Of a stretch of DNA of 64,000 nt, positions 11,215 to 57,100 are shown piece after piece. The position numbers were made by a program, and so were the translations under genes. The DNA lies in IMG/VR virus record IMGVR_UViG_3300031963_014654, positions 1 to 64,000 of that record, one strand, 5' to 3'. Source of the stretch: a virus. Below the pieces are notes generated by a model, which did no database searches, was not told the DNA's origin, and worked only from the letters and a program-made list of their open reading frames with translations. Position 1 is the first letter of the stretch; each line of letters begins with the position of its first letter.

Positions 11215-11661
11215 TTATTGTTGTTTAAATTTTGTAATGTTATTTGTTATTTGCTGGTAAATGGTATGGTGATTTTTGTCGATTGCAGGAAGATCAACAA
11301 TGTTTTTCATTTTTTTTATATCCGCACTTATTTGGTTTCGAGTGTATGGATACTTAGGAAATTTGCTTTTTATTTTTGCTGCAGAAAGGTTGCAATGCAC
11401 TTTTAGCAGGTAAAAACAAGTTTTACGTGCTTTTTTGTACGGTTCGGTACGCGAAACGGCAAGGTTTTTTTGTTGCACTTTGTGGATTTCAACAACTTGT
11501 GCAACTATGTATTTTTGTAAATCGATTGAATGAAGCTGTGGATTACTTTCGAGTGAAAGTGCTTCGATAAGGTCGGCCGCTTTGGGGCTACCATGTTTAG
11601 CAATTAATGAATCAATTGCATTGTTGATACGCAATAGTGGGTTGTTTTCTGACATAAGCAA
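11215..11661 (-). CDS. putative DNA-binding protein
   Basis: This gene encodes 148 residues (146 if the second ATG, MSENNP, is used). A helix-turn-helix-like segment lies at about 90-118 (LSAAKIKSKFPKYPYTRNQISADIKK), basic and followed by a helical end. It may bind DNA as a regulator or packaging accessory. The call rests on composition and pattern only. It lies 1 bp before the next gene. Confidence 0.52.
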   Translation of the reverse strand: MLMSENNPLLRINNAIDSLIAKHGSPKAADLIEALSLESNPQLHSIDLQKYIVAQVVEIHKVQQKNLAVSRTEPYKKARKTCFYLLKVHCNLSAAKIKSKFPKYPYTRNQISADIKKMKNIVDLPAIDKNHHTIYQQITNNITKFKQQ

Positions 11662-18800: not shown

Positions 18801-21800
18801 TTGTTTAATCCTGATTCGCGTAGTTTACCATAAGCAATAAATGTAAGCACGCTGAAAATTTCTAGCGGACTATTTGTGAATGGCGTAGCTGTTAATGTAA
18901 GTACGTTACGGTTATTGTTGTTTTTAAGGATGTACTGACTAATCATAAATCCTTTTAATGCAATGCTTGATGGTGCTCCACCTGCTTGTATTTGATACGG
19001 ATTTTTTTCGCGATCCTCGCCATTTGATTTCATTTCACCTTTAACGCCAACAAACAACTTTTTCATTTTGTGAGCTTCGTCATAACAAGCAAAATCAAAT
19101 CCAAGGTCCTCAATATTGATTAAAGTACCTCTTAATCCTCGTCCAATAAGTGTTTGTAATCGTTCGTAGAACGATGCTTCGCGTTTTTGCCCTGATTTGG
19201 ATGAATAATCAACCGCCTTATCTGGATTTTGATCCAAAATATCATACATTTCGGCAACAATTTGATTTGCTGTGTTTTCGCTAAATCCAATTTGCTCAAA
19301 TCCTTCGTATGTTAATACGGAAATAGAGTTTTCGGGAAGCATTTCAATGTTTCCATCTGCATCTTTTAATTCCGATAAATAATCTTTGCTTAAATTGTAA
19401 AGATCATTAAATTTTACATCTGGGAACAATCCTTTACCTTCTGCCAAAAATTGCTTGTACACTTGGTTTGGCACAACAATAAATGGTCGCTTGCAATAGC
19501 CTGCATCCATAAATTGCTTTATAGCAAATAATGCGCTCCATGTTTTACCAACTCCTACATCGTAGGCAAGGCATCCGCTACCTTCATTCATTAAAAATGT
19601 TACGGCTTCGCGTTTTTCGGGGCGAATATCTACTACTGAATTGCGGTATTCTTTTGCATGTGCAAATGCTACAGGAATTTTATTGTAATTAACAGGCAAA
19701 TAACCGTTAAAACGCTCATTCCAGGTTGTTTCAATTTTTACAATATCCTCTACATTTAACCATTCAGCTAAGAAAATAGAAAATAATCGATCGCCTTCTT
19801 CTTTTGTAATGTTTAATTTACGTTGCCAAATTGCTTCTGCTTCCTTTTTGTCGACTGGCGTACCATCTTTACCTAATGATGGTCGCTGACCTTGCTGTAC
19901 GTAAATTTTAATAATTTCGGCATAGTTTGTATCTTTTTTAATTTGATACTCACCACGGTAATTTACAAGCCAATATTGGAATGCTTCGGTTAATGATAAT
20001 TGACTGAACTTTGTTTTTTTCCAATCGCTCATGTGCCCAACATATAAAAAATCGGGCCTACCTGGTTGTTTTCCACCTGCAGGTTGCGATTTCATTTTAA
20101 ATTCTTTACCATCTACCAATGTTTCAATCATAAATGTATTGGCAAACTTACTAATTGGAAGCAATTTTAAACGGTTGTCGAAATTTGCATTGGTAAGTGT
20201 TAATCGCTTATCGTAGCTTATTTTAAACACATTATCCAAAACTAACTTTTGGTTTTCAAAAACTTGATTTCCATACAATTCAATTATGGTTGATTTATCG
20301 TTTTCAAGTGCCGATTTTTTCTCCCAAATGTTCCCTGACAAATATAAATATGCTGGAATTAATGATCCACGGAAATGGAAAACTAAGCCATTGTTAATCC
20401 AATCTGTTAATGGGCTTGCTCCCATTTGCCATCCGCTTAATTGGTACCATTTATTTGAAAGACGCTCGCCAATTGCTTCCTTATACCAAACAAATACTTG
20501 TAATTCATCTTTTGATATTTCGGGATTGTTTTGGGCAAATACTTGCTCAAATGTAACCATATCGGCATCCAATACAGGATTGCTTGCAACAATTCGTGTA
20601 ACGGCTTTTGTATGTTTTTTAATTTCGCGAATAATTGTTTCTTTGCGTGTCCCTTCCAACGAAGTTTCAATATTTTGCTGTGCTTGTGGATCCTGTAAAA
20701 GTTGGTTTACAGTTTCGTTTTCAGTTGATATTGTTGGATTTTCGGATGCATTAATTTGCATAAAATTTAATGGAGCATCAATACGATTAACGCTATCAAT
20801 TTTACCACGGTATTTTGTAACTTCGCCAAAACGCCCACTTGTTTTGTATGGCTCGCCAAGTACTTTATCTGGATTTTGAGCAAACCAATTATCGTTTACA
20901 AGTAAGTTTAATGTATTGGGCTGCTTTGCTTCGCCTGCAGCAACTAATTCCATTGGAGTGTTAAAAAAGTCCTCAATAGGATCGGTTGTAGTATCTGAAA
21001 TTAAAATAAATTTACCATCACCGTATTGATAATATTGTTCCGGAGTAGAAATTCCTTTATAAACTTCAACTTGCTTTCCAAGCATGTTTGAATACCATGC
21101 TTTTGGATTAGCTTCTTTTATCCAAACTTTAAATTTCTCAATTGGCACCCATTTTTCTACTTCTGGCTCTAGTGCTTTTGGCAACTCTGCTGCATTCTCT
21201 GCAAATTCAAAACTATCGGATGTGTTTTTACCATACTTTTTGGCACGTGCATCAAATAAAACAGAATCGGGATGTTCTGCAATATAATCATCTACAATTT
21301 TATCAAAATCGGTTTGCCAACGATCATCAAACGAAGTATAGATTGATTGTTCTACTCCTGGTGCAATTGGCTTCATTGAAGATTGTGGAACAGGTGTATT
21401 GTATCCTTTAAGCACCAAAATATATGGGCTGTATGTTAATGTGGTGCCACGTGGCGAACGCTTTCCTTTTGGAATAAATGTTACGCTTAATGCTTTTTCG
21501 TATTGAGCATATTTTTTTGCTTTGATTTTTATATCAGTAACATCTATTTTGTTTATATTTCCCATAAACTCGCTTGCCAAATACATTGTAGCTGGACCGG
21601 TATATGAAAATTCCATTGGAAGTATTGGTGCGGTTGGTTTTGTTTCTGGCGTTTCTTTTTTTAATATCATGCCATCAATCGGGTTTATTTCCATCCAAAC
21701 ATCCGATACTGAATTAGCGGTTTCTTCGTTTATAACGCTTATTATTAAATCTACTCCACCATCCGTTCTATCTATTATAGATTCTTTTATGCCCATATCG

Positions 21801-24211
21801 GCAATATCTCTAAATAGTTCAATCTTATTTTTAGGGAAAACAAATTTTCTATAATAACGATTATCTCCATCCCATTTTTGCCAAAGATCAAGTTCGTGTA
21901 AGTTATCTATAAAATCCGATTTTTGTTTTTTTGGTGCTTCTGTCATGTTTTTATCTGCTTCTTTTGTTTCAACAATAGTTGGTTGTTCTTCCAAGTATTG
22001 CCAAATTTGGTGATTATTGGTAAATGCAGGCTTTGTTAATTGTTCGGCTTGTATTCTTTTTAAGTCCAATAAAACTTTTTGTATAACAGGATTATTCAAT
22101 GAATACGCCTCTTTTTTTATTTTGTTTAAAAAACTTGACTTAAATAAATTTATATCCCATCCTTCGGTTGTTCCTTTTTCGTTTTTGCTTTTTTGCAAAG
22201 AAAGAATGAACATAAAATCCTTTTTTAATTTTTTATATAATTCGCTTCCTTCTATATTCGACAATAGTTCGGATTGCTTTTGCTCTTTTTCGGCATTTCT
22301 TTTTTCCATAACCGCACTATTCATAATCGACAATTTTGCAGCAATTGCTTTTTCTAATGCTTTTTCATCATCGCTTTTAGGTGATTCAATATCCATGTTT
22401 GAATATTTTTTCTTTTTTAAAGCAATTAAATCATCCAATGGCATGTTATCATAATCCATTTTTTGTTCGGGCTGCTTTAATCCAAATTCCGCCAAATATG
22501 TTTCGGATATTTTGCCAGGAAATCTATCAGCATAAATCAAAAATAGCCTAATTACCTCTTTTCTTTTTTCTGTGTTTGTGCCCGATATATTATTTGCTAT
22601 CTGGTTTAAAACATGCCTTTCTCTAAATATATCCCCTTTCCAATTATCGTGTGGATCAATTTTATCCAATATTGCTTGGTCGAAATCCTGGCTTGTGTTT
22701 GGTTCAATTGTAATTGTGCTATTAGCATTTTTGTTAATCAATGCAAGGTCCTGTGTATCTATTTTACTTGTAATATAGGTATCGTACATTTCTTGGAACG
22801 ATGGTTTATCACCAAAAAGGCTTTCGTTTTGGTTATCAATTGCGCTTTGGTTATATGCATCAATTGAACTTTTGAATTTATTTCTACCTGCAGCAAGCAA
22901 TCGGTTCATAATTAGCACGTTTTTTTCGGGTGCTTCATCAAACATGTTGCCTTGTACAATGTAATCTTTAAAATCAAGTCCACTATCGTGTATCTTTTTT
23001 TCCAATAAGAATGCTTTGTTCAACAAATCAATTAATGAATTTTCGGCCAATGAAGCATTTTTTGCTAATACCGGTAAACTTGTAATTACAATTGTTTTAA
23101 ATTGCCTTCCGCCTGCCATGCTACCTGCAATTAATGCATCTTTTGACAAAATCATTCCTGCAAGCAAATTTTCAATTAAATCTTTTCCATTTTCGGTAAA
23201 TCCACGTTCATCAAAATATGCTGCAAGCTCATTTTTTGTAATTATATTACATGAAATAAGCATATCGCGTAGTTTTACCTGGTCGGAATAACTTGCATAA
23301 AATTGGGAGAATGTTTCGTATTCACCAACAAGCTCTGCAATCATATTTTTGCAGCCCTCGTTTTCATTCAGCATTTTACCAATTTTAATTGCTTTGTCAA
23401 TTGGGCGTTCGCTTTTTTTGGTTTCCTTGTTATACTTACTCAATTCGGTTGTATTGTACTCTTGGAAATCGTAATCTATACGAACTAAAATTGGATGGTC
23501 GAATGTTTTTGTTTCGCTATTTATTCCTGTAAAAGTGTATTTATATTCATAACTTTTACTTCCTGCAGAAACATCTACCTTTTTAATTCCAAATGCAAAA
23601 ACTTCTTCCACTAAAAAATTGCAATAATCTCTATATTCCTTTGGGAAATCGGTAATTGCTCTTTTTATGCTCATTGTACGGTTATTTCCAGATACAACAA
23701 TTCCATCTTTTGTAATTATTGGTGTTCCTGATGGTGTGCGGCTTGTGCTCACCAAAATATTTGGATCAAGGTTTTGTGCTACTTCAATAACTTTTGCTTG
23801 TGCATTTTTATCATCGGCATAGTTGCGATCGTTTATGTTTTCGCCATTTATTGTTGGATAGCCAATGGTAGTTACAAACGAATGTTCGTTATGGGATGCA
23901 AGAATATTATCGGCATTTACAATTGCAAATTGTGCTTGCCTTTTTTCGCCATTTGGCATTGATATTTCTATTTTGCGTCCGTAAACAATTGGCGTTTCCA
24001 AAAACAATGATCGGTATCCAATATTTACCGAATCGGTAATTTTGCCACCTTCCTTAAATGTGTGTTGGATATGCACTTGTTTGTGCCCTTGGTTGATTAA
24101 TGCTTGCTTTGTATGCAATGCAATTTCCTTGTCATGTGTTTTGTCAAATGATTTAAGTTCGTTGCTGGACTTATCCACATACATTATTTCATAAATTTCG
24201 GGATATTCCAT
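15833..24211 (-). CDS. giant polyvalent protein: DdrB/ParB-like + SF2 helicase + zeta-toxin-like kinase
   Basis: This gene encodes 2,792 residues. About 60-210 match a DdrB-type ParB-like domain (SRTPSGTPIITKDGIVVSGN, NRTMSIKRA). About 1,530-2,150 form an SF2/SNF2-like helicase with Walker A YDVGVGKTWSA, DEAH box FACYDEAHKMKK and motif VI QLEGRIWRQGN. About 2,485-2,640 form a zeta-toxin/polynucleotide-kinase-like fold with Walker A LTGGAPGSGKSHFL and VDADEVRAKLPEYKG. The final ~60 residues carry KMEQGGSV. Such large polyvalent proteins are known from phages and conjugative elements and are thought to enter with the DNA or protect it. The partner methyltransferase lies two genes upstream. Whether the kinase domain is a toxin or a nucleic-acid kinase is open. 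Confidence 0.85.
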   Translation of the reverse strand: MEYPEIYEIMYVDKSSNELKSFDKTHDKEIALHTKQALINQGHKQVHIQHTFKEGGKITDSVNIGYRSLFLETPIVYGRKIEISMPNGEKRQAQFAIVNADNILASHNEHSFVTTIGYPTINGENINDRNYADDKNAQAKVIEVAQNLDPNILVSTSRTPSGTPIITKDGIVVSGNNRTMSIKRAITDFPKEYRDYCNFLVEEVFAFGIKKVDVSAGSKSYEYKYTFTGINSETKTFDHPILVRIDYDFQEYNTTELSKYNKETKKSERPIDKAIKIGKMLNENEGCKNMIAELVGEYETFSQFYASYSDQVKLRDMLISCNIITKNELAAYFDERGFTENGKDLIENLLAGMILSKDALIAGSMAGGRQFKTIVITSLPVLAKNASLAENSLIDLLNKAFLLEKKIHDSGLDFKDYIVQGNMFDEAPEKNVLIMNRLLAAGRNKFKSSIDAYNQSAIDNQNESLFGDKPSFQEMYDTYITSKIDTQDLALINKNANSTITIEPNTSQDFDQAILDKIDPHDNWKGDIFRERHVLNQIANNISGTNTEKRKEVIRLFLIYADRFPGKISETYLAEFGLKQPEQKMDYDNMPLDDLIALKKKKYSNMDIESPKSDDEKALEKAIAAKLSIMNSAVMEKRNAEKEQKQSELLSNIEGSELYKKLKKDFMFILSLQKSKNEKGTTEGWDINLFKSSFLNKIKKEAYSLNNPVIQKVLLDLKRIQAEQLTKPAFTNNHQIWQYLEEQPTIVETKEADKNMTEAPKKQKSDFIDNLHELDLWQKWDGDNRYYRKFVFPKNKIELFRDIADMGIKESIIDRTDGGVDLIISVINEETANSVSDVWMEINPIDGMILKKETPETKPTAPILPMEFSYTGPATMYLASEFMGNINKIDVTDIKIKAKKYAQYEKALSVTFIPKGKRSPRGTTLTYSPYILVLKGYNTPVPQSSMKPIAPGVEQSIYTSFDDRWQTDFDKIVDDYIAEHPDSVLFDARAKKYGKNTSDSFEFAENAAELPKALEPEVEKWVPIEKFKVWIKEANPKAWYSNMLGKQVEVYKGISTPEQYYQYGDGKFILISDTTTDPIEDFFNTPMELVAAGEAKQPNTLNLLVNDNWFAQNPDKVLGEPYKTSGRFGEVTKYRGKIDSVNRIDAPLNFMQINASENPTISTENETVNQLLQDPQAQQNIETSLEGTRKETIIREIKKHTKAVTRIVASNPVLDADMVTFEQVFAQNNPEISKDELQVFVWYKEAIGERLSNKWYQLSGWQMGASPLTDWINNGLVFHFRGSLIPAYLYLSGNIWEKKSALENDKSTIIELYGNQVFENQKLVLDNVFKISYDKRLTLTNANFDNRLKLLPISKFANTFMIETLVDGKEFKMKSQPAGGKQPGRPDFLYVGHMSDWKKTKFSQLSLTEAFQYWLVNYRGEYQIKKDTNYAEIIKIYVQQGQRPSLGKDGTPVDKKEAEAIWQRKLNITKEEGDRLFSIFLAEWLNVEDIVKIETTWNERFNGYLPVNYNKIPVAFAHAKEYRNSVVDIRPEKREAVTFLMNEGSGCLAYDVGVGKTWSALFAIKQFMDAGYCKRPFIVVPNQVYKQFLAEGKGLFPDVKFNDLYNLSKDYLSELKDADGNIEMLPENSISVLTYEGFEQIGFSENTANQIVAEMYDILDQNPDKAVDYSSKSGQKREASFYERLQTLIGRGLRGTLINIEDLGFDFACYDEAHKMKKLFVGVKGEMKSNGEDREKNPYQIQAGGAPSSIALKGFMISQYILKNNNNRNVLTLTATPFTNSPLEIFSVLTFIAYGKLRESGLNNLKSFFDTYVHATNELVINAKLRPERKQVVLGFNNLQSLQQLISRFVNYKTGEMVRVPRPNKYVLPYKSKLIDGELIKLSESERVDTILPLSAQQRALMDDIKAYAESKIELSAICGTSHLSDKKTADDSDDEDMVDATAGVELDESTLNDDEKAGVRTLRAMSYARNLALSPYLYECAGLGKPNYIDYIETSPKLQYVIECIRSVKKYHEKNNTPVSGQVIYMDRGVEYFGLIKEYLIKEVGYKEHEVGIIKSQMPGGKDAKEKVKMAFLGEAYDAKSGELYDISDAERMKIVIGSSTIKEGINLQKHSTVLYNCFVDWNPTDVKQLEGRIWRQGNLYNSVRIATPLMEDSMDIFIFQKLSEKTARIAEIWDSNGESNTFNLQEFNPSEIKSALISDPMVLAELQLIEDKEKIDDDIRGLKNEQSNIDKIIEAKETFEAYFNDFDKYVDEYRPKKEGETRSFATLLGLANGVVKTQLDAEGKKMEYTYNRSNKEGVVYSDKSPAGKPYYQDKLVLANRTLLKAEKEYLKPNGLTIEKLPLYKDSLNDRIKELDESKAKITSEENIKLRADYIAAERAANKVESVGAIGRAKEFERLNYLLDDKVKKSKKQEPIAMACPPLDEKGERRIDKEAIEHLTVCINAQPQTKEQNVDKDGEYTAERKKLHAKIREAFKQNATCIKQDKPIAILTGGAPGSGKSHFLKNYAPYLLSKNIFHVDADEVRAKLPEYKGWNASATHHETKDIVDELIDDIGGKCKFDTIYDGTMNKAKKYYELIDKLKSVGYEIFIIYIDVPREVSEMRVLDRYKRTGRFVPMDVVQEVFDAGHTAFDQIKKMVNGWILVDGMSGQVMEHGGEKIPQNRDYAKLTDTVNFKKEQKLTDDNRTRKVKIAKAKAAAQSQRIRILELDKMEQGGSVNDYKYNYRMLDRLRADNDYYLGNEGKSKHVKHLWAGNVEGQIAEMKKLWNQLPDNKKPEWLSMEDILEYERKMK

Positions 24212-24212
24212 A

Positions 24213-24434
24213 TTAATCGTTAATCATGTTTGGGTTATACTCTCTTTCAATTTCGTTTATTGCTTGCCCTACTGTTATTCCGCGTTCTAAAATTCGCTTT
24301 AATACTTTTTCTTCTAATTCAGATTTTCCTTCTTTAGAATCCTTCATTTCACAAATTGTAGGAGTAAGTATTTTGTCGCATGATTCCAAATGTGAATGGA
24401 TCAATTGCTTTAGTTCTTTTAATTTTTCGCTCAT
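24213..24434 (-). CDS. small helical hypothetical protein
   Basis: This gene encodes 73 residues, charged and helical, with LEEKVLKRILERGITVGQAI. It sits 1 bp before the polyvalent gene and 3 bp after the methyltransferase gene. It might be a small partner of either. No family is recognised. Confidence 0.55.
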   Translation of the reverse strand: MSEKLKELKQLIHSHLESCDKILTPTICEMKDSKEGKSELEEKVLKRILERGITVGQAINEIEREYNPNMIND

Positions 24435-24437
24435 GGC

Positions 24438-26300
24438 TTATTTTCTTTTAAATACAAGAATATCACTTAATACATCGGTACGGTCAAAAACTCCATTTGG
24501 TAATCGGTAAGCATCTACTAAATCGGCTTTATCGGCAATCATTTGCTTAATTTTGCTGTTCCCTTGCTGTAAAAATGGTGTGCCTCCATTTGCAACTTCG
24601 GTTCCAATAATGTAAATTAATAATCCGTTTGGCAAAGTTAAGTCTAATCCGCGTAAAATAAAATATTCTATCCAATTTTTTGCGTTTGTATATTGTTTTT
24701 CGCCCATTCCCATTCCTAATCCAGAAACATCGCCATAAGGAGGATTTCCAATTACAAGGTCGAATTTTTGAATATCCGACAACTTATTTTTAACGGTATC
24801 GCGGTTTTTAATAAAAATATTTTCGAATGGCTGCAAATAAAAGTTGAATTGAGGATACAATATTTTACAAATAGTATAGCTGTATTTGTTTATTTCATAA
24901 CCTGTAGCCATGCTTTGAGTTGGAACATATTTTAAAAATTCGCCTGTTCCTACGCTTGGCTCCAAAACAGATTGCCCATCTTTAAATCCAAACTTATAAG
25001 CCAATGCCCACATTTTGCGAATAATTGCATCTGGTGTATAAAATTCTGTTAATGCTTTTTTAGCTTCTTCTATTGAGCCAAATTCTTCTACATCAATACC
25101 ACCGTAACCGGAGTATTCGCGCAAAAATTGTTTTTCTGAAAACAGGTAATTGTTTGGATCATCACCTTTTTGGTCAATTAATTGCTCAATTTCTTTGTTT
25201 TTTTGATAATCGCTTTTTTGTGGTTCGGATTTAACTGAACCATATTTACCATCCTGCGATTTATCGTTTTTAGGAAATTTCATGCGTTTGTTGATTGATC
25301 CACCGCGAGCCATATAATTATTCCCATTTATTGCAAGTCCTTTATATCCACCGTTAAAAATTGTATCTATTTTGGAGTTGATTCCAAAATTGTCTTTTAA
25401 GTATTTTTCTATTTCATAGTATCCTGTTCCAGATTTTGTAAATACGAATAGCCTTCCTGTCGGGCTGGAATATTGTTTTTCTTCATCAATTCTATATATT
25501 TTATCTTTAAATTGGCTATAAAGCTCTGCTTTTATTTCATCAAAATAATCATATAAAATTGAGCCTTTTTCAATAACATGCCCACCAATTAAACCACCAC
25601 GTGCCATTTCATCAAATTCCAAATCAACATTGTTAAGTTTAATTTCGCCACCATGCTCCATTTTATCGGTTTGTTCGCCTGCACAACCGCAATCTAATGG
25701 TTTTCCATTACCATCGCGTTGGTTAATTTCAGATAATTCATGGCAATATTCTTTGCTATTTTCGGCATTAATTACCACTTCACCACCTTCGGCTTCGGCT
25801 ACCGGTTTATTATTTACAACAATTTCGATTCCGCCATTATCGTGGCTTGGACCTTTTAATACGGTTCCATCTTTTAACTCCTGGATTGGTCCACCTTGCT
25901 TTAACACACCCATTTCTAATTTACGGTAATAATCGGGTGTTTCTTGAATATGATCGGCTGCAATGTATTTTGCTGCTTTGGTTGTGGATGGTAATTCGGT
26001 TTGTATTTTTTTGATTGTGGCTTTATGCTCCAATTCGGTTTGGCCACCTTCATTTATTTTTTTGATTAAATAATCGATGTATTTTTTTTCGGCTTTTGAT
26101 ACAAATGTAAATCGATGCCCAGAATGATCGTAAATAACGTATGGCTTTTGTTTATACGAATCCAATTGCTTTACATCAATAAGTTTTTTAACGAGAATAA
26201 CATCATCAATCATTTCTTTTTTGGTGATTAATTTTTCTTCGTAAATAACCTTGTTACGCAATGCTGCAGGAAGTGAATTAGCTTTTTTGTAGTCAATCAT
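24438..26300 (-). CDS. polyvalent protein with C-terminal N6-adenine DNA methyltransferase domain
   Basis: This gene encodes 620 residues. About 390-620 form a type I/Eco57I-like N6-methyltransferase, with the SAM loop VLEPSVGTGEFL and catalytic motif VIGNPPYGDVSG. About 130-205 contain a phage-type segment, TVLKGPSHDNGGIEI and EAEGGEVVINAE. Six xxGGx motifs dot the N-terminal half (GG at about 85, 136, 172, 217, 235, 333). In many elements this methyltransferase is fused to a helicase like the one in the 15833-24211 product; here the two are separate neighbouring genes. Likely role: methylation of viral DNA against restriction. Confidence 0.82.
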   Translation of the reverse strand: MIDYKKANSLPAALRNKVIYEEKLITKKEMIDDVILVKKLIDVKQLDSYKQKPYVIYDHSGHRFTFVSKAEKKYIDYLIKKINEGGQTELEHKATIKKIQTELPSTTKAAKYIAADHIQETPDYYRKLEMGVLKQGGPIQELKDGTVLKGPSHDNGGIEIVVNNKPVAEAEGGEVVINAENSKEYCHELSEINQRDGNGKPLDCGCAGEQTDKMEHGGEIKLNNVDLEFDEMARGGLIGGHVIEKGSILYDYFDEIKAELYSQFKDKIYRIDEEKQYSSPTGRLFVFTKSGTGYYEIEKYLKDNFGINSKIDTIFNGGYKGLAINGNNYMARGGSINKRMKFPKNDKSQDGKYGSVKSEPQKSDYQKNKEIEQLIDQKGDDPNNYLFSEKQFLREYSGYGGIDVEEFGSIEEAKKALTEFYTPDAIIRKMWALAYKFGFKDGQSVLEPSVGTGEFLKYVPTQSMATGYEINKYSYTICKILYPQFNFYLQPFENIFIKNRDTVKNKLSDIQKFDLVIGNPPYGDVSGLGMGMGEKQYTNAKNWIEYFILRGLDLTLPNGLLIYIIGTEVANGGTPFLQQGNSKIKQMIADKADLVDAYRLPNGVFDRTDVLSDILVFKRK

Positions 26301-29904: not shown

Positions 29905-31107
29905 TTATTTTTTTGGGTTTTCCAAAACTTTAGGAAAAATATCTACTAATAAATCGGTATTTGTATGCCAAGTGTATAGTTGTTGGACCGCTAAATTTGC
30001 TCCTTCCGCCATCTTTTTACGTGCTCCTTCATTGCTGATCATAAACTCTATTTTTGCAATCCAATCGTCTGGATTGTTGTTGCATTTTACTGCAGGTATT
30101 TTACCTGGTGCATATATTGTTTCGCCTTGTTTTGCAATAATATCGGTATATGGTTTTACATTACTTACAATGGCAGGAATACCCAATTGCGCATATTGCA
30201 ATAGTTTGTGATGACTTTTGCATCGGTTAAATTCATTGTCGAGCAATGGCATTAATACAAAATCTAATCGCAAATTTGCTAATGTTTTGAAATATTGCTG
30301 AATGCCTACTGTTTTTACATGCTTAAATTTTACGCCTTGGAGTGCATTTACTTTGGCTTTTACTCCATCCCAACCAAATAGCACAAATTCTACTTTATCG
30401 GAATGCTTTTTAAGTATTTCCAACATTACTTTGCGCATTGGAGCAAGGTCCAAAAATTGTGTTGGGTTAAGTTGCATTCCTATTTGTAGCTTTTGCGGCT
30501 TTGGTTCTGTAATTTTTACACCATCGGCAACATAATAATCGTTGCTCATAAGATTTGGAAGGAATTGAAATTGTGGCAATTCATAACCATTTTGGGTTAA
30601 AAGGTTTGCATAATAATCAATAAGCTCCACGCTTGGGCTGGTAACAATATCAACTGCTGCTAGGTTTATTAGTAATTGTGATCGTCTTTTTTCGGCTGCT
30701 TGTGCATTTTCGCCATGCATTGAAATATGATAATTATCATCTATATGCATTCCAAACTTTAGGTTTGGCTTTTTGTTTGTTTCTTTTATGGCTTTAATAT
30801 CGGCTGGTAAATCATGGAATGATGTATTGAACATGATGTAATCGGCCCACATAAGGATTGAATCGTTTATTTGAACATCGAATCCGTTGGATTGCTTTTG
30901 CGGAGTAGGTTCCTCTATTTGGTTTACAATTGCTTGGTGAGTGCTCGTTTTGTTTAATTCCATGGCAGGAATGATGCTTGAATACAAGCCTGTTCCATTG
31001 GCATAACATGCAATGAATAATACATGCACTTTTGATGGATCGGGATTAAGTACTTGTGCGTAACGGATTGCGTAATCCTCGTTTTGTAGGTTGAAAATTT
31101 GGTTCAT
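29905..31107 (-). CDS. GT-B glycosyltransferase (GT4-like)
   Basis: This gene encodes 400 residues with a two-Rossmann GT-B layout. The N-terminal half has VHVLFIACYANGTGLYSSII. The C-terminal half has KLQIGMQLNPTQF, HKLLQYAQLGIPAIVSNV and PYTDIIAKQGETIYAPG, the pattern of the nucleotide-sugar-binding region of GT4 enzymes. It would transfer a sugar from an activated donor to a glycan. First of a group of about nine sugar-transfer genes. The donor and acceptor cannot be read from the sequence. Confidence 0.78.
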   Translation of the reverse strand: MNQIFNLQNEDYAIRYAQVLNPDPSKVHVLFIACYANGTGLYSSIIPAMELNKTSTHQAIVNQIEEPTPQKQSNGFDVQINDSILMWADYIMFNTSFHDLPADIKAIKETNKKPNLKFGMHIDDNYHISMHGENAQAAEKRRSQLLINLAAVDIVTSPSVELIDYYANLLTQNGYELPQFQFLPNLMSNDYYVADGVKITEPKPQKLQIGMQLNPTQFLDLAPMRKVMLEILKKHSDKVEFVLFGWDGVKAKVNALQGVKFKHVKTVGIQQYFKTLANLRLDFVLMPLLDNEFNRCKSHHKLLQYAQLGIPAIVSNVKPYTDIIAKQGETIYAPGKIPAVKCNNNPDDWIAKIEFMISNEGARKKMAEGANLAVQQLYTWHTNTDLLVDIFPKVLENPKK

Positions 31108-32347: not shown

Positions 32348-33187
32348 CTAAATTTTAATCCAATCTGCAGGAATTAAATCCTGTGTATTGTAATGGTTTA
32401 ATTGTGGTCCGAACCATTGGTTTGGTGCAATTGTGATTCCGTATTGGTTATCAAAAAACATGTTTTTGGCAAGCCATGCAGCCCACCAACTAAAACTACT
32501 GTTTGCAATAATGTGGCTTTTGCATTGGGCCATTAAAAACAAATCCACAATATCGGAGTTTCCAGATACAAAATGGAGCTTGCAAATATCGTCCGGAACG
32601 GTTATGTTTTGTTTGCACCATTCAATATCATCTGAAAATACAATAAAATTAACCATTGACTTTACAGGAAATTCAAAATCTTTATAACTTAATAGTTTTA
32701 TGATTGCTCTATTGTAATAATCGGTTTCGGATAATGGTGGATGGCAATCTGGCTTTTGCAAATAATCGCCTCTACGAACATGAATTGCTACGGTATTTTG
32801 TAAATTCAAAAATTCGGCTCCTGCATTTCGAACAACACGCAAAAATTCGTTTTTTGGCATAAAGTGCCTGATAATCAAATCTTTGTTTTGAACAAAATAC
32901 TTTTCTGACTGAAAAAAGCCATGCAAAATTGCATTTTTTTCCAATGGTAATGGTTTGTATTCGAATTGCAGGGCAAGTAATGGGTTATGCATTATGCCAT
33001 TAAATTTGCAATCGTATGTTGTATCCAAATTATCATCAATTGGATTGATAAAGTATTTATTGTATTCCCATGTGGTAAATTGGGCTGCATCGTTTACATT
33101 GGCTGCATGTGATAATGTAGCTGCAATTTGAAACAATTGATTGCCTAACCTACCGGTATTTGGTGGATCAATTTTAAATATTACCAT
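32348..33187 (-). CDS. alpha-1,2-fucosyltransferase-like (GT11)
   Basis: The start at 33187 (MVIFKIDPP) is used because a longer frame would overlap the upstream gene by 137 bp. The product has 279 residues. GRLGNQLFQIAA near the N-terminus, VAIHVRRGDYL in the middle, FIVFSDDIEWCK and ANSSFSWWAAWL near the C-terminus are the ordered motifs of GT11. It would transfer fucose from GDP-fucose, commonly to galactose. Fucosylated glycans on Bacteroidetes surfaces or on the virion are possible targets. Confidence 0.85.
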   Translation of the reverse strand: MVIFKIDPPNTGRLGNQLFQIAATLSHAANVNDAAQFTTWEYNKYFINPIDDNLDTTYDCKFNGIMHNPLLALQFEYKPLPLEKNAILHGFFQSEKYFVQNKDLIIRHFMPKNEFLRVVRNAGAEFLNLQNTVAIHVRRGDYLQKPDCHPPLSETDYYNRAIIKLLSYKDFEFPVKSMVNFIVFSDDIEWCKQNITVPDDICKLHFVSGNSDIVDLFLMAQCKSHIIANSSFSWWAAWLAKNMFFDNQYGITIAPNQWFGPQLNHYNTQDLIPADWIKI

Positions 33188-33497
33188 CGTAACCTGCTTT
33201 TGGTGGTGTATTATCTGATACTTCTTTTTGGATGTTTTCGGGATTACCGATAATGGTATTTCCTTCCTGGTCGATAATTTTCCAACCTGCAATTGCACAA
33301 AAACGTGCAAAGTCGCGTGCGCTCATTCCACCATAACCTTTAATTAGGGATGAAATTTTGTCGGCACGAAGGTGCATTTTTTTTAAATGTGGCTCGCGTG
33401 GTTTGTTTTTTATAAAAAATTCGGATACAAACTTTAGAATATCAAATTGCTTAAATATTGGTAGTTTTTCTTCTGGTTTAATTGGCTGTGTGCTCAT
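33174..33497 (-). CDS. putative DNA-binding or regulatory protein
   Basis: This gene encodes 107 residues. A helical basic section (about 40-75, RADKISSLIKGYGGMSARDF) resembles a helix-turn-helix, followed by GWKIIDQEGNTIIGNPENI. The pattern is reminiscent of the small repressor-like phage proteins, but no firm family. Confidence 0.5.
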   Translation of the reverse strand: MSTQPIKPEEKLPIFKQFDILKFVSEFFIKNKPREPHLKKMHLRADKISSLIKGYGGMSARDFARFCAIAGWKIIDQEGNTIIGNPENIQKEVSDNTPPKAGYDGNI

Positions 33498-43470: not shown

Positions 43471-44018
43471 TCTATTTGGTCGGGTTGCTTAAATTCCTTC
43501 CAATTGAAGTCTTTTTTTGTTTTTGTTTTGTGGCAAGGCTTGCACAATGGCTTGAAATTTCCTAACCAACAACCACCACCGCCATGCTTAACAGGTATAA
43601 TGTGATCTATATCTTCCCAATCATTTTCGTTGCATTCGCAACACTTGCTTCCGTAATATGTATGAAGAAGAACTTTTGCCTCTTTTGTTCCGTAAGCAAT
43701 TATTGAATAAACACGGTATGCAAAGTTTTTACAATTTTGGTCGGCCCAACTAAATTTTGCTTTTTGTCCGCAACCACAACGGCAATCGCCATTATCGTTT
43801 TTTGGAAACAGAGCTTCTATTGTTAATTTGCCTTGGTTTCTTCTGTATGGATTAATTAAATGGCTTATTCGTTGATATATTTCTGTGGGATTAAAGAATA
43901 TTAATCGCAATCGATTATTCCAATATCCCATTCTTAAAGAATCTTCCAAAAACCATTCGGGAGCACTAATTTCCTTTTGTGGTAATGGCTTTATTGTTTC
44001 CGCATTTATTTCCATCAA
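43452..44018 (-). CDS. HNH endonuclease domain protein
   Basis: This gene encodes 188 residues. The N-terminal part contains a CRCGCGQKAKF zinc-type motif. The C-terminal HNH core has SKCCECNENDWEDIDHIIPV, then GGGGCWLGNFKPLCKPCHKTK. The D-H and N and H ligands are intact. It would cut DNA. A homing or host-degradation role is possible. Its start overlaps the glycosyltransferase upstream by 4 bp. Confidence 0.83.
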   Translation of the reverse strand: MMEINAETIKPLPQKEISAPEWFLEDSLRMGYWNNRLRLIFFNPTEIYQRISHLINPYRRNQGKLTIEALFPKNDNGDCRCGCGQKAKFSWADQNCKNFAYRVYSIIAYGTKEAKVLLHTYYGSKCCECNENDWEDIDHIIPVKHGGGGCWLGNFKPLCKPCHKTKTKKDFNWKEFKQPDQIDLFIKK

Positions 44019-44911
44019 TGAAACGCCCTTTCCAACAAAAATGGTGTTAATTGTGCTTCAAACTCCTTTTTTAGCTGTTTCATGGCTTTGGTGATAGCAA
44101 ATGGATGGCAACCTGTGAAACGTGTTGTATAGCAATCGCCACGTGCATCTGGTGTAAATTCGTGTACGCCTTGGTATTTTTGTTCTATTGATTGCTTTTG
44201 CTCTGCATTACCTGTTACCCATGGTAAATATACGCTATTGAAATAATCGGGGATGCATTTGCCTGGTGAAATTACTGCCCCCTCGTAATATTGTACTTTT
44301 TCGAATACTTGTCGCGGAAACGTGTAACTGTAATGATACATGTAAATTCCTTGTGCGGCCAATTGCTCGCTCGATAAGTGTTTTTTGTCTACTCCTGCAG
44401 GTAATTCCATTGTTGGTGGACGATGGTTTATCCATTGTGCGCCCCAATATGGATATTTGCGGATACGAATAAATTCGTGATCATGGTCGAAGCCGGTTAA
44501 ATAATGCTCAAATCCACCATAAAAACTGTATGCTTTAAATCCAACGCTGGTTGGTTTTTCGGTTTCGAGTAGTTTAATTGTTGATTGAATATCGGCTGCT
44601 TTAAAAACTTCATCGGCATCAATATTCCAGATGTAATCGGTATCGGCTTCTACATGCTGCATGTATGCATTGGCTTGCTCGGTTTTTTCCAAGTATGTGC
44701 CATGTACAATTTTGATTTTTTTCTGTGGATCGGGAAAGTTTTTGAGTATTTGGTTTGTACGGTCCAACGATGTGGTGAATCCTTTATCTTTCCAATATGT
44801 AACACAACCTTCGGAAATAAGGATTTGGTTCATGTATGGATAAATGCTTTCCAATACTTGTTGTAATACAAAATCGGAATTAAAAACGATTATTCCTGCT
44901 GCTATTTTCAT
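44015..44911 (-). CDS. GT2-type glycosyltransferase
   Basis: This gene encodes 298 residues. AAGIIVFNSDFVLQQVLESI starts the GT-A fold and YIWNIDADEVF is the DxD metal site, followed by SVGFKAYSFYGGFEHYLTGF. It belongs to the GT2-like sugar-transferases in this operon. Donor and acceptor are unknown. Confidence 0.8.
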   Translation of the reverse strand: MKIAAGIIVFNSDFVLQQVLESIYPYMNQILISEGCVTYWKDKGFTTSLDRTNQILKNFPDPQKKIKIVHGTYLEKTEQANAYMQHVEADTDYIWNIDADEVFKAADIQSTIKLLETEKPTSVGFKAYSFYGGFEHYLTGFDHDHEFIRIRKYPYWGAQWINHRPPTMELPAGVDKKHLSSEQLAAQGIYMYHYSYTFPRQVFEKVQYYEGAVISPGKCIPDYFNSVYLPWVTGNAEQKQSIEQKYQGVHEFTPDARGDCYTTRFTGCHPFAITKAMKQLKKEFEAQLTPFLLERAFH

Positions 44912-52408: not shown

Positions 52409-53197
52409 TTAATTACGGTAATAATTGGTTCCTTTTGCTGCTTTATCTTTATCTACAAATATAATTTTGGGCGTAAATGGTGGTTCTATTGCCCAACGCT
52501 GTTTAATGTATTCTTGGTTTTCCATCCAAAGTTCGTACATGTATGGGTTAAGTTTACCAGGTTCGTGCTCGCAATAATGGTAGGTTGGTGGTAGAATTTT
52601 CACCAAAGGTTCATTATTACACACAAATTTATTAATTGCTGATTCATCGTGCCAAATTGGTGTAATTCCAGCAAATTTATCGTTTTGAATGTATAAAAAC
52701 ATTAATGCGCACATAGCTTTAAAATTATACGTTTGACCTCCATAAAATCCGCCTCCTACATAGATTGTTGGCTTGTGAGCAAAGCATGATGAATTGGCGT
52801 TTGTTTCGAATGGTGCTGCATCTGTTCTGTTTATGTATGCGCCATGTGCAACACAAACAATATGGTGCTTACATATTAAAGGAGTGATTTCGGAAGCAAA
52901 ATAAGCATCGGCATCTATTGCAAAACAATGTGTAAATTTTTCGTAGTGATTAAAATCGGAAAGGTATTTTGAATAAAAATACGAACGCCACATGGATGCT
53001 TCTGGGAATGGCTTATGCTCTACTTCGATGTATTCAATATCTCTTTTTGTTTCGGGCAAAGGTGTTGCTATATCGGAAACAAATATAACGTAAACAACTT
53101 CCTGCTGTGGCAAAAAATATTGATCGGCCGATTCGATTAATTTTGGAAGAAACTCGGTGTATTTGCCGGTTGCTGTAATAAATAGTGCTATTTTCAT
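52409..53197 (-). CDS. GT6-family (ABO-like) glycosyltransferase
   Basis: This gene encodes 262 residues. HCFAIDADAYFASE is the DxD site, YVGGGFYGGQTYNF the acceptor loop, ITPIWHDESAINKF the WHDES motif. This ordered set is that of GT6, the histo-blood-group ABO family, which transfers galactose or N-acetylgalactosamine in alpha linkage. A few bacteria and phages have such a gene. A possible product is an ABO-like cap on the virus or host glycan. Confidence 0.85.
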   Translation of the reverse strand: MKIALFITATGKYTEFLPKLIESADQYFLPQQEVVYVIFVSDIATPLPETKRDIEYIEVEHKPFPEASMWRSYFYSKYLSDFNHYEKFTHCFAIDADAYFASEITPLICKHHIVCVAHGAYINRTDAAPFETNANSSCFAHKPTIYVGGGFYGGQTYNFKAMCALMFLYIQNDKFAGITPIWHDESAINKFVCNNEPLVKILPPTYHYCEHEPGKLNPYMYELWMENQEYIKQRWAIEPPFTPKIIFVDKDKAAKGTNYYRN

Positions 53198-53754
53198 TTT
53201 ATTAAAGAAAGTGTTTTTGGTATTCCGTTTTTAAAAAAGAATGTAGTAGTCCAACCTGTATAAGTAAATCCGTATTTGTCGGGTTCGTGTTGGTATGTTT
53301 CTATTCGTTGAAAACTATTCATTAAATTTTTTCCTGGTGCATAATACTCGCGTTCGGAATTATCCAATATTAAAACTCCATTTTTGGCTAAATATGGCAA
53401 TGCGGATTGAATACATGCTGCACGATTGCGCCCATCTACCAAAATAATATCGTATTTATCCCCAATTTTAGCTGCTTCGGCAATAGCATCGTGGTAAGAT
53501 TGCTCCCTGCGCATTAACATACCATCTTGAGGCTTTGCTAAAAAACTTTTAGCTTGTTTGGTAATCTCATCCCACCATTGTGTATCGTGCTCCACAGAAT
53601 GCAGCACTTTTACATTTTTTTGCTTTAAAAACCAAATGGTGCTTGCTCCCATTCCGTATTCGAAAATACGCAAATCTTTGCCATTATCAATTATTTTTTG
53701 AAGTATTCGATTAGCTTCTTCGGTAAGCCATGGTTCGGTGCGTAGTTGGTCCAT
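53194..53754 (-). CDS. class I SAM-dependent methyltransferase
   Basis: This gene encodes 186 residues. RIFEYGMGASTIWFLKQKNV is motif I, HSVEHDTQWW motif II, YDIILVDGRNRAACIQSALP motif IV region and LILDNSE motif V. The start is inside the end of the integrase gene, in another frame (44-bp overlap). Substrate unknown; next to a GT6 gene. Confidence 0.8.
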   Translation of the reverse strand: MDQLRTEPWLTEEANRILQKIIDNGKDLRIFEYGMGASTIWFLKQKNVKVLHSVEHDTQWWDEITKQAKSFLAKPQDGMLMRREQSYHDAIAEAAKIGDKYDIILVDGRNRAACIQSALPYLAKNGVLILDNSEREYYAPGKNLMNSFQRIETYQHEPDKYGFTYTGWTTTFFFKNGIPKTLSLIK

Positions 53755-54592
53755 TTGAGTTTAAATTTATATGTGATATTGGAGTTTGTATTTTGCTAAT
53801 TGTATTGTGGCTCAAATGTAAGTAAATATTTGTTGTTTTTACATTGTTGTGCCCTAATAATCGTTGTATTAAATTAATATCTGTACCATATTCTACCATG
53901 TGCGTAGCACTTGTGTGGCGAATAAGGTGAGCATATATTCGCTTATTGCAAATTCCGGCTTTATCGGCCAATTGTTTTAAAACTTGGTTTACGCTGCTTT
54001 CGGTATATTGAATATCAAATTGGCCATTTAACACATACGTTTGGGATTTGTATTGATAATAATATGTTTCCAACAATTTTATTAAATCGGGATCAAGTGG
54101 AACTTGCCTATCTTTTTTGCCTTTTGCTTGAATGATATTTATTATCATTCTACTACGATCAATGTGTTGCCATTTAAGGTTTATTAATTCGGAAACACGT
54201 AAGCTGCAGGAGTAAAGTAGCGATAATATTACTTTGTGCTTTAGGTTTGCACATACATCAAACATTTTTTGTATTTCCTGTACCGACAAAACGATTGGTA
54301 ATTTTTTGTCTTTTTTAGAAAAAGGAATTTTTTCTAATTTAATGGGCATTCCAACTGTTATTGAATAAAAGGATTTTATTGCACATAGTTTATGGTTACG
54401 TGTATTTATTGTTGGAAACGTTAATAGCCATTCTTTAATTTTTTGCGTTGAAATTGCTTTTGGCTCTGTTTCGCTGCTAAAATATTTTAAGAATGTTCCA
54501 ACCGAACACAAATAGTTTTCTTGCGTTCGCTCACTTGGATATTTTAACTTACAATCTGTCGAATATTTATCATACCATTTTCGAAATTCCAT
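53711..54592 (-). CDS. tyrosine recombinase (XerC/D-like)
   Basis: This gene encodes 293 residues. An N-terminal SAM-like core-binding domain (about 5-85) is followed by the catalytic domain: YSCSLRVSELINLKW (first Arg), HLIRHTSATHMVEYG (H-x-x-R), LLGHNNVKTTNIYLHLS (His and Tyr nucleophile). The extra integron-integrase insert was not seen. It has an AAGGAGGT Shine-Dalgarno, unlike other genes here. It abuts three methyltransferase genes with attC-like spacers, and its last ~15 codons run over the next gene. It is the likely mover of that array. Confidence 0.9.
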   Translation of the reverse strand: MEFRKWYDKYSTDCKLKYPSERTQENYLCSVGTFLKYFSSETEPKAISTQKIKEWLLTFPTINTRNHKLCAIKSFYSITVGMPIKLEKIPFSKKDKKLPIVLSVQEIQKMFDVCANLKHKVILSLLYSCSLRVSELINLKWQHIDRSRMIINIIQAKGKKDRQVPLDPDLIKLLETYYYQYKSQTYVLNGQFDIQYTESSVNQVLKQLADKAGICNKRIYAHLIRHTSATHMVEYGTDINLIQRLLGHNNVKTTNIYLHLSHNTISKIQTPISHINLNSNGPTTHRTMAYRRS

Positions 54593-54597
54593 TTTGG

Positions 54598-54605
54598 ACC
54601 TCCTT
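54598..54605 (-). promoter_or_regulatory. unusual strong Shine-Dalgarno before the integrase
   Basis: AAGGAGGT on the minus strand lies 5-6 bp before the integrase ATG. The other starts I checked have only A-rich leaders, as expected for Bacteroidetes. It fixes the start at 54592 and hints that the integrase came from another background. Confidence 0.8.
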
Positions 54606-54643
54606 GTTTTATTGTTGTTTTAGACTGTTTTATCTATATAGTA

Positions 54644-54666
54644 GTTAGGTGCAAGTTTTAAAACCC
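54644..54666. repeat. array site A, inverted core of the first cassette
   Basis: GTTAGGTG, 3 bases, then GTTTTAAAAC. The mirror image lies at 55594-55615 (GTTTTAAAAC, 4 bases, CACCTAAC), so the 54683-55543 gene is enclosed by inverted repeats. On the minus strand ACCTAAC matches the attC core RYYYAAC. Confidence 0.65.
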
Positions 54667-54682
54667 TACCCACCTGTGTTTA

Positions 54683-55543
54683 TCAAACTAAGTGGTTAAA
54701 AATGTGTTCTATTACAGGTACAGTCCATCCGTTTCCTAGTAAATGGTATCTTTTACCACTTGCCACACCATTTGTATAATCTAAAGTAACCCCTTGTAAT
54801 ATCTCACACTCATTTTCTGTTAATTTTCTAAGCCCTTTTTTCATCTTAACTATATTAGTAGCTGACCTATCGCATCTAAACGAATGTGGTGTTATGCAAT
54901 TAGCTCTATTGTATTTTATTGATTTATTATAAAAATCAACAACTTCAATAGTATTTCCACTTTCTAAATATCTACAATTATCGTAATGTTTTATCTGATG
55001 TTCTTTACAGTAATATTTTTCATCTACATTTTCTAACAATACATTATCTATATAATATTGCTTAGTTATTATGTTTTCTAAAGGAATATTTGTCCAATAA
55101 TATCTTTCTCTATTTTGTGCGGTAAAATTATTTGAATTTATTAAAACGCCTTTTACTCCTAAAAAATTATCTAAATCCAATTTACTTTTTTCTTTCATTT
55201 TTACATTTTCTAATAAAAAGTATTTAGGATTAGTTTCTTTTAAAATTCTTAGGTATTCATAAAATAGTTTTGATTTATCACCGTCTAATTCCTTACGTTC
55301 AAATTTTAAACTTGAAAAATCCTGACAGGGTGAGCCTCCAATAAGTAAATCAATTTTAGGTAAATCAATTGACTTTACATCAATAACGCTTCCGATATGT
55401 TTTGTATTTGGATAGTTTTTTTTAGTTATGAAAATAGCATCTTTATCAATTTCACTCGCAAAATAATTATCTACTTTGATTCCTAAATTATTTAAAGCTA
55501 TTTGTCCACAACTCATTCCATCAAATAAACTAAGTACATTCAT
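54683..55543 (-). CDS. C5-cytosine DNA methyltransferase
   Basis: This gene encodes 286 residues. VLSLFDGMSCGQIAL is motif I, LLIGGSPCQDFSSLKF the catalytic Pro-Cys motif IV, YFLLENVKMK motif VI (ENV), NAQNRERYYW-like motif VIII (FTAQNRERYYWTN), and YHLLGNGWTVPVIEHI motif X. All main motifs are present, so it is probably active. It would methylate cytosine at an unknown site. It is the first cassette after the integrase. Confidence 0.92.
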   Translation of the reverse strand: MNVLSLFDGMSCGQIALNNLGIKVDNYFASEIDKDAIFITKKNYPNTKHIGSVIDVKSIDLPKIDLLIGGSPCQDFSSLKFERKELDGDKSKLFYEYLRILKETNPKYFLLENVKMKEKSKLDLDNFLGVKGVLINSNNFTAQNRERYYWTNIPLENIITKQYYIDNVLLENVDEKYYCKEHQIKHYDNCRYLESGNTIEVVDFYNKSIKYNRANCITPHSFRCDRSATNIVKMKKGLRKLTENECEILQGVTLDYTNGVASGKRYHLLGNGWTVPVIEHIFNHLV

Positions 55544-55593
55544 TTTGTTTTAATTTTAAATTATATGTTTTACATTCCAATTTGCACTCCTTC

Positions 55594-55664
55594 GTTTTAA
55601 AACCAGACACCTAACCGCACCTAATAAACAGCAAGCCGATTTATTAGCTGCAAACCGTTAGCAG
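55594..55664. repeat. array site B, attC-like palindrome
   Basis: Contains the inverted core CACCTAAC, then a 12-bp stem with one mismatch (55617-55628 with 55640-55651) around a short loop, then CCGTTAGCAG at 55655-55664. On the minus strand the order is GCTAAC, stem, loop, stem, GTTAGGT, as in attC. Confidence 0.6.
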
Positions 55665-55670
55665 AAAGCA

Positions 55671-56372
55671 CTACACTACTGCTAAAATTGAACTTTCGAT
55701 TATTTCTTGACATAATTCTTTTGGTATTTTTGAACGGTTAAAACTTCCTTTTTTGCCTTGCGTTCCTGTTTTCGATCCTCTTGGTGCAGGTTGATGATGA
55801 CAATTTTTGTTTCCGTTGTGGCACATTGGTCTTGGTTGCCATACTTCGCTATTTGTCCATATATCCGTTGGCTTTGCTCTATCGTCGCCATAAGTACAAT
55901 ACCAAACCGTATGCCTTTTAAATCTTTGCATAAATGGCATTTTACGCATCATTCCTCTTGGGTTTTCAATAAAGAATACCATTTTAGGATTAATCAAAAG
56001 CCATTCATCGATTAGGCTAATAAAGTGTTGGTTTACTGCATCGCATTTTTTAGCGTATTCGCTTTTTGGATCTGTTCCATTTCGGTGTGTGCTTATTGCT
56101 GCAATAGTGTAAGTTGTGCAATCAGGAGAAGCCCAAACAACATCTGGAATAAATGGCACATCTTTAGTTTGTAATTCTTCAATATCAATGGCTAAATCTA
56201 TTTTATCAAACTTTTGCCAATCAATACTAAAAACATTCATCCCTTTTGCTTCGGCTACACTTCCAACGGATCGAGAACCAGCGAATAATTCTACTAAATT
56301 ACCCGTGCCATCTGCTAACATCGGTTTGGCAAAATTGCCGTTTGGTGCTTCTATTGAACTTTTATCTATCAT
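55671..56372 (-). CDS. C5-methyltransferase-like phage protein
   Basis: This gene encodes 233 residues. LVELFAGSRSVGSVAEAKGM is the SAM motif, VWASPDCTTYTIAAIS holds a Pro-(Asp)-Cys motif in place of PC, and FFIENPRGMMRKM resembles the ENPxG motif of phage cytosine methyltransferases. The PDC rather than PC spelling is usual in this branch. Target base and site unknown. It sits between sites B and C. Confidence 0.75.
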   Translation of the reverse strand: MIDKSSIEAPNGNFAKPMLADGTGNLVELFAGSRSVGSVAEAKGMNVFSIDWQKFDKIDLAIDIEELQTKDVPFIPDVVWASPDCTTYTIAAISTHRNGTDPKSEYAKKCDAVNQHFISLIDEWLLINPKMVFFIENPRGMMRKMPFMQRFKRHTVWYCTYGDDRAKPTDIWTNSEVWQPRPMCHNGNKNCHHQPAPRGSKTGTQGKKGSFNRSKIPKELCQEIIESSILAVV

Positions 56373-56399
56373 TTGAACATTTGTTTTTTAATTAAACTT

Positions 56400-56441
56400 T
56401 TGGGAACGGCAACTTCGCCAAGCCGATAACCGTTATGTGCC
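56400..56441. repeat. array site C, attC-like palindrome
   Basis: AACGG and CCGTT (56405-56409, 56430-56434) with an inner CGGC/GCCG pair form a hairpin, and GTTATGTGCC ends it at 56432-56441. GGCACATAAC, its exact inverse, is at 56999-57008 beyond the MT-A70 gene. Confidence 0.58.
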
Positions 56442-56443
56442 AT

Positions 56444-56968
56444 TTAAAGAGCGACACTACTCTCAACTTCATTGCCCCAAACATCCCAACCATCGGGTTT
56501 TATTCGGGCAAATAGTTCAATCCTGTCTTTTCCGAAAATCTCTATCATCTCTCTTATCTCTTTTGGTTTTTCTGAATGTCTTAATTTTTTTGAACTTATC
56601 TGAATAAGTGTTGGTATAGTTTTCCGTTTTGGGAATTTAGGTAAATTACCTTTTCTGCCAACTAATAGAAATTCAGTTCTGTGATGGAATCCGTATAAGC
56701 ACAATCCATTCATTTTATCCCAAGTAATAGTTCTTTGATAGTTAAATCCCCATTCTTCCATAACTTCAAATGCTTGTCTTAAATATCCTTGTGTTGTCCA
56801 CAAAAACAAAATACTATCATCTTTTGCCAACATTTCCACATTCAAATTTTTTATATCCTCTATTTTCATCATCGGATATGAATGTTCTATCTGATTTGGT
56901 CTTGTTTTTCTTTTAAACATTTTTACATCCCAAGCAGGGTCGGCATATATTACATCGTATTTCTTCAT
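56444..56968 (-). CDS. MT-A70-family adenine methyltransferase
   Basis: This gene encodes 174 residues. DVIYADPAWDVKMF carries the catalytic D-P-x-W motif, SILFLWTTQGYLRQAFEVME and RTITWDKMNG, then HRTEFLLVGRKG follow. Common in phages as N6-adenine DNA (or RNA) methyltransferases. It is the third cassette, enclosed by GTTATGTGCC and its inverse. Confidence 0.88.
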   Translation of the reverse strand: MKKYDVIYADPAWDVKMFKRKTRPNQIEHSYPMMKIEDIKNLNVEMLAKDDSILFLWTTQGYLRQAFEVMEEWGFNYQRTITWDKMNGLCLYGFHHRTEFLLVGRKGNLPKFPKRKTIPTLIQISSKKLRHSEKPKEIREMIEIFGKDRIELFARIKPDGWDVWGNEVESSVAL

Positions 56969-56996
56969 ATTTCTAAATTAAATTCGTAAATAAAAA

Positions 56997-57100
56997 ACGG
57001 CACATAACACGGTATATAAGCAAGTTTGCCATTAAGTTTGTGGGTAATTTGAAACATTCTGCAAGGCAAACCTGCTCATATACCCATCCGTTATATCCCC
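56997..57100. repeat. array site D, long attC-like palindrome
   Basis: A 104-bp imperfect palindrome. TATATAAGCAAGTTTGCC (57013-57030) pairs with GGCAAACCTGCTCATATA (57065-57082) with mismatches. The outer ends are ACGGCACATAAC and CCGTTATATCC. The stop codon of the upstream gene lies within its outer end. This is the clearest attC-like structure of the array. Confidence 0.65.

Follow-up and report, generated by a model that had tools for sequence, protein, structure and literature searches.

An integron-like cassette array rich in DNA methyltransferase genes, encoded by a bacterial virus next to a non-IntI tyrosine recombinase

The analysed window, a stretch of 64,000 nucleotides, is part of the 70.5-kb IMG/VR virus record IMGVR_UViG_3300031963_014654 and encodes on its minus strand a tyrosine recombinase (53711-54592; Pfam Phage_integrase, 2e-36), which is preceded by three cassettes (54644-57089), each with one DNA methyltransferase gene and bounded by attC-like sites. 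Cassette 1 (54644-55656, minus strand) carries a C5-cytosine DNA methyltransferase (ORF 54683-55543; PF00145, 4e-39), cassette 2 (55657-56431, minus strand) a DNA methyltransferase of the phrog_757 type (ORF 55671-56372; 1e-26) and cassette 3 (56432-57089, minus strand) an MT-A70 family adenine methyltransferase (ORF 56444-56968; PF05063, 3e-29). Each gene is enclosed by a GTT box and its mirror, namely GTTAGGTG (54644) and CACCTAAC (55615) over 8 bp, GTTAGCAGA (55657) and TCTGCTAAC (56319) over 9 bp, and GTTATGTGCC (56432) and GGCACATAAC (57008) over 10 bp, which is the expected signature of integron cassettes, because the start box of a cassette and the first box of its own attC were one site in the circular form. 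The cassettes end in attC-like sites, all on the minus strand: site B (55609-55663) with 41 nt between its boxes, site C (56313-56438) with 112 nt between its boxes, and site D (57002-57096), with a 20-bp stem, at the outer end of the array. An attI-like junction (54632-54646, minus strand AAC^TACTATATAGAT, where ^ marks the junction) is located 51 bp upstream of the recombinase start codon. On the outer side the array is flanked by a phage gene (57091-57510, minus strand; phrog_1123), which in relative L004 (59% identical) is followed directly by another phage gene without an array, while a Methyltransf_24 gene (53194-53754, minus strand) overlapping the recombinase 3' end is a fixed flank outside the array. 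Contig L002 carries the same array at 99.99% identity.

The original prediction, an integron-like array of three methyltransferase cassettes with hairpin spacers of attC-like order and an XerC/D-like recombinase forming an exchangeable anti-restriction locus and possibly an undescribed integration platform, is confirmed as an observation, which proves larger than claimed, and supported as an interpretation, although with corrections. The middle site is 126 nt long and covers the 5' end of the second methyltransferase ORF, rather than being the short spacer next to the stop codon, the fourth proposed site (54632-54646) is not an attC but a half-site, the conserved junction AAC^TACTATAT, and the array ends at 57090-57096, inside the stop codon of the next phage gene.

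The hairpins of sites B, C and D fold as single-stranded DNA with z -3.72, -2.97 and -3.34, respectively, and in 200 dinucleotide shuffles of the region the array parser found one cassette six times and never a chain of two, against the three observed. As no Rfam model matched the region, covariance models of attC were built. A model from 23 attCs of genuine Bacteroidota IntI integrons, none of them from phages, has sites C and D as its two best hits in 64 kb on both strands (17.9 and 16.7 bits, next best 10.3), although with rough E values of only 0.07 and 0.13, while a model from 56 attCs of other phages, none of them from the window, recovers site C with E 1.6e-16 and site D with E 1.2e-6; site B is too short to score well (E about 1). 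The two types of model also cross-recognize, as the IntI-attC model hits phage sites to E 1.6e-7 and the phage-attC model hits IntI attCs at E 0.003-0.007.

Searches with the recombinase, and subsequently with an alignment of twelve, identified relatives on 188 viral contigs, of which 80 were kept. In the first twelve loci, with recombinases down to 41% identity, the motif AAC^T(A/T)CTATAT lies 50-52 bp before the start codon while the sequence upstream is unrelated, and in 11 of 11 of those tested the box before the junction is mirrored, over 8-10 bp, at the start of the last cassette. Over 70 loci with at least 400 bp upstream, 62 have at least one chained cassette at one junction, usually 50-53 bp before the recombinase start codon, with 215 cassettes in all and up to 17 in contig L116, a median attC of 116 nt and a median cassette of 537 bp, whereas eight shuffle replicates gave 0-4 loci and 0-5 cassettes each. 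Several contigs are near-copies, so these are not 70 independent events, and 8 of 70 loci show no chained cassette with the strict rule (the strict parser failed on L003, L213, L215, L217, L246, L266, L271 and L276). The three methyltransferase genes of the window are not fixed in relatives. A Bacteroidales MAG contig (L010) with a clade recombinase and three cassettes also holds a second C-terminal fragment of such a recombinase (4314-4445).

Gain, loss and reordering of cassettes are seen in relatives, although not in the window's own lineage. Contigs L213-L221 have recombinases that match that of L005 at 72% and almost each other, yet four different last cassettes abut the same junction. 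Near-identical phages L218/L220 and L216/L219 share 98-100% identical flanks, but carry cassettes 03-04-01-02-00-06 versus 00-05-07-02-01-08-09, that is, cassettes 00, 01 and 02 in different order among others which they do not share. The best evidence comes from cultivated phages, the ten Polaribacter phage Freya isolates from one host strain deposited as complete genomes, of which the seven sequences compared differ by exact cassette loss or gain. Against Freya_10, Freya_9 lacks 307 bp, Freya_8 902 bp, Freya_5 3198 bp, Freya_2 4100 bp and Freya_1, which has an empty junction, 4942 bp, all bounded by AAC^ boxes upstream of the integrase, while Freya_6 equals Freya_5 plus a new 472-bp insert at the junction, which seems to have a very long attC loop that contains a small ORF. 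Freya_3, 4 and 7 have the same lengths as Freya_2 and 6. The source paper gives Freya genome sizes of 44.0-48.9 kb and an integrase, read as a sign of temperate life, and does not use the word integron (PMC8776804). Phage Leef_1 also has a junction, 54 bp from its integrase start, and an attC chain. However, the phage-attC model does not reach E 0.01 in Freya, Leef or Polaribacter phage P12002L, so those attCs rest on boxes, stems and exact variants. Danklef, the sister of Freya, does not provide a second series of gain and loss: Danklef_1 keeps an array region with an MT-A70 gene, but its annotated integrase (11361-11492) is only a 132-bp fragment, and the visible difference to Danklef_5 is a methyltransferase gene next to the portal gene, not a cassette. 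MT839798 has no array upstream.

Interestingly, the polarity of the attC sites is standard while that of the cargo is not. In attI-centred orientation the attC spacers are 1-2 nt and then 5 nt, as in eight genuine Bacteroidota IntI arrays, where they are 2-3 and 5-6 nt. In these control integrons genes mostly run away from attI, whereas of 215 cassettes in the phage loci 173 have ORFs that run toward it and 12 away, with 30 lacking an ORF of 50 aa. The gene strand, equivalent to the integron bottom strand, forms the more stable hairpin in 51 of 56 phage attCs and at all three window sites.

The recombinase possesses all six catalytic residues (R132, K157, H222, R225, H248 and Y257), but scores below the cut-offs of every NCBIfam tyrosine-recombinase equivalog, the best being the XerA-type NF040815 (184.5 against 220 bits), while the integron integrase model TIGR02249 gives 149 against 265 bits. 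The stretch between catalytic K and H is 58-69 residues in 52 clade members, 105 in all 16 IntI and 69-74 in Xer, that is, the enzyme lacks the IntI-specific insert, which is taken as the mark of integron integrases (PMC9668308) and is reported to be lacking in XerCD (PMC4792948). In the phylogenetic tree IntI, Xer and the phage clade are separate with starred support, while the Freya and Ingeline recombinases group with bacterial XerA-like proteins and that of Leef is unplaced. The predicted structural model (pLDDT 78, pTM 0.57) matches IntI4 and XerA about equally. Among the bacterial XerA-like recombinases closest to the clade only 3 of 31 show one chained cassette, near the shuffle level, so no cellular counterpart is claimed, although a recombinase nearest the phage clade (L162), with one chained cassette at 90-953 bp upstream, is possibly a cellular relative.

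Of 149 distinct cassette proteins, Pfam identifies N6_N4_Mtase in 16, C5 methylase in 9, Dam in 5, and MT-A70 and D12 in 1 each (members may overlap), so that about a fifth are DNA methyltransferases, besides PAPS reductase-like proteins in 6, a TET-associated glycosyltransferase in 2 and an Acb2/Tad1 hairpin in 1; most are unknown. Counter-defence is a reasonable but unproven theme.

Taken together, these observations are explained, with high confidence, by a phage-encoded cassette-capture platform that works like an integron, although recombination by this enzyme itself is inferred and not shown. In this model the XerA-like recombinase binds a double-stranded attI-like site 51 bp upstream of its own gene and the folded single strand of attC hairpins and exchanges them at the AAC/GTT core, whereby circular cassettes are inserted next to the recombinase, excised and reshuffled. 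The hairpin strand corresponding to the recombinogenic bottom strand of integrons, its use likewise being inferred, is here the coding strand of the cassette genes, so inserted genes point at the recombinase and lie codirectional with the surrounding phage operon, which is inferred to transcribe them. The array most likely serves as an exchangeable store of anti-restriction and other counter-defence genes, a function of the cargo that is also inferred. On the other hand, the recombinase lacks the insert that in IntI grips the extrahelical bases of attC, so how it would handle folded strands is unexplained, and the cleanest series of gain and loss, in Freya, involves a recombinase only about 31% identical and outside the window's clade.

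Among alternatives, a dual use, in which recombinase and attI also integrate the phage into chromosomal attC or dif-like sites with cassette exchange partly a by-product of lysogeny, is possible but doubtful. The recombinase is the only PF00589 protein found in the record, the Freya and Leef homologues are annotated as phage integrases and IntI-bearing Bacteroidota hosts are common, with 84 of 296 genomes sampled carrying IntI; yet no integrated copy or attP/attB pair, which were not looked for, was seen, and arrays of up to 17 cassettes and reordering are not needed for lysogeny. Less likely still is a cluster of attC sites without its own integrase (CALIN) that happens to sit next to an ordinary lysogeny integrase and is mobilized by host IntI in trans, as in the phages of Qi et al. 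2023 (PMC9892861), whose CALINs contain methyltransferase cassettes and whose attCs are recombined by IntI1. Although the recombinase belongs to the phage-integrase superfamily and host integron integrases acting in trans are not excluded, the junction lies at a conserved distance from the recombinase start codon, variation in Freya and in L213-L221 starts exactly there, and Bacteroidota IntI arrays have genes pointing away from attI. Plain phage mosaicism by homologous or illegitimate recombination, with the hairpins as terminators, is very unlikely even though phage genomes are mosaic and intergenic hairpins can be terminators, as boundaries fall on the same base of the core box in every Freya variant compared and in reordered cassettes, inverted boxes match over 8-10 bp per cassette and attC covariance models hit these sites.

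Canonical integrons such as the Bacteroidota chromosomal integrons share with the phage arrays the attC type and its polarity relative to attI, chained boxes, tandem cassettes next to the recombinase and exact gain, loss and shuffling, but differ in having a recombinase of the IntI clade with the specific insert, a junction about 200-230 bp instead of about 51 bp from the recombinase start and cassette genes that mostly point away, and in not being carried by phages. The phage array is not a member of the integron family as defined by IntI. Phage arrays of attC sites with methyltransferase cassettes were already reported, notably for P12002L (PMC9892861), but without an adjacent recombinase, the proposed recombining enzyme being a bacterial IntI; the attC-like sites of P12002L (NC_028924, 32226-32921 and 38038-39241) have genes antisense to attC polarity as well, so this may be a relic of the same kind of array. 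In the pdif/Xer modules of Acinetobacter plasmids (PMC6449649) and in CTXphi integration by host XerCD (discussed in PMC4792948), Xer-type recombinases also move gene modules or recombine a folded strand, but these involve host XerC/D and dif-type sites, whereas here the element encodes its own recombinase and uses hairpins of 41-123 nt that, without a search for dif motifs, fit attC models. The reverse integrons of spirochaetes (noted in PMC9668308) likewise show an unusual relative orientation of integrase and array, but use true IntI.

What appears to be new is the combination of a phage-encoded non-IntI recombinase with reversed cargo; only the 2023 phage CALIN study was found as a precedent in the open-access literature, but priority is not certain, as preprints and subscription papers were not covered. 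It is somewhat more likely than not that a distinct class of integron native to bacteriophages exists, driven by XerA-like recombinases that handle folded attC strands without the IntI domain, with at least two recombinase lineages (the window clade and the Freya/Ingeline type) and inverted cargo, which acts as an interchangeable counter-defence store and shares attC sites, hence cassettes, with bacterial chromosomal integrons. As integrons are thought to need IntI and its special domain to recombine folded single-stranded DNA, a large phage family that does so with a plain XerA-like enzyme would bear directly on how integron recombination arose and on what the IntI domain is for, and would give phages their own adaptive cassette store opposite the defence cassettes kept in bacterial integrons, with cassettes able to pass between the two.

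Outside the array, the phage may carry further defence evasion, as of a 2792-aa and an adjacent 620-aa protein (15833-26300) the latter matches DarB-like antirestriction and methyltransferase PHROGs. Several glycosyltransferase genes are also present in the window (29905-31107, 32348-33310, 44015-44911 and 52409-53197), including a family-6 type next to the recombinase locus.
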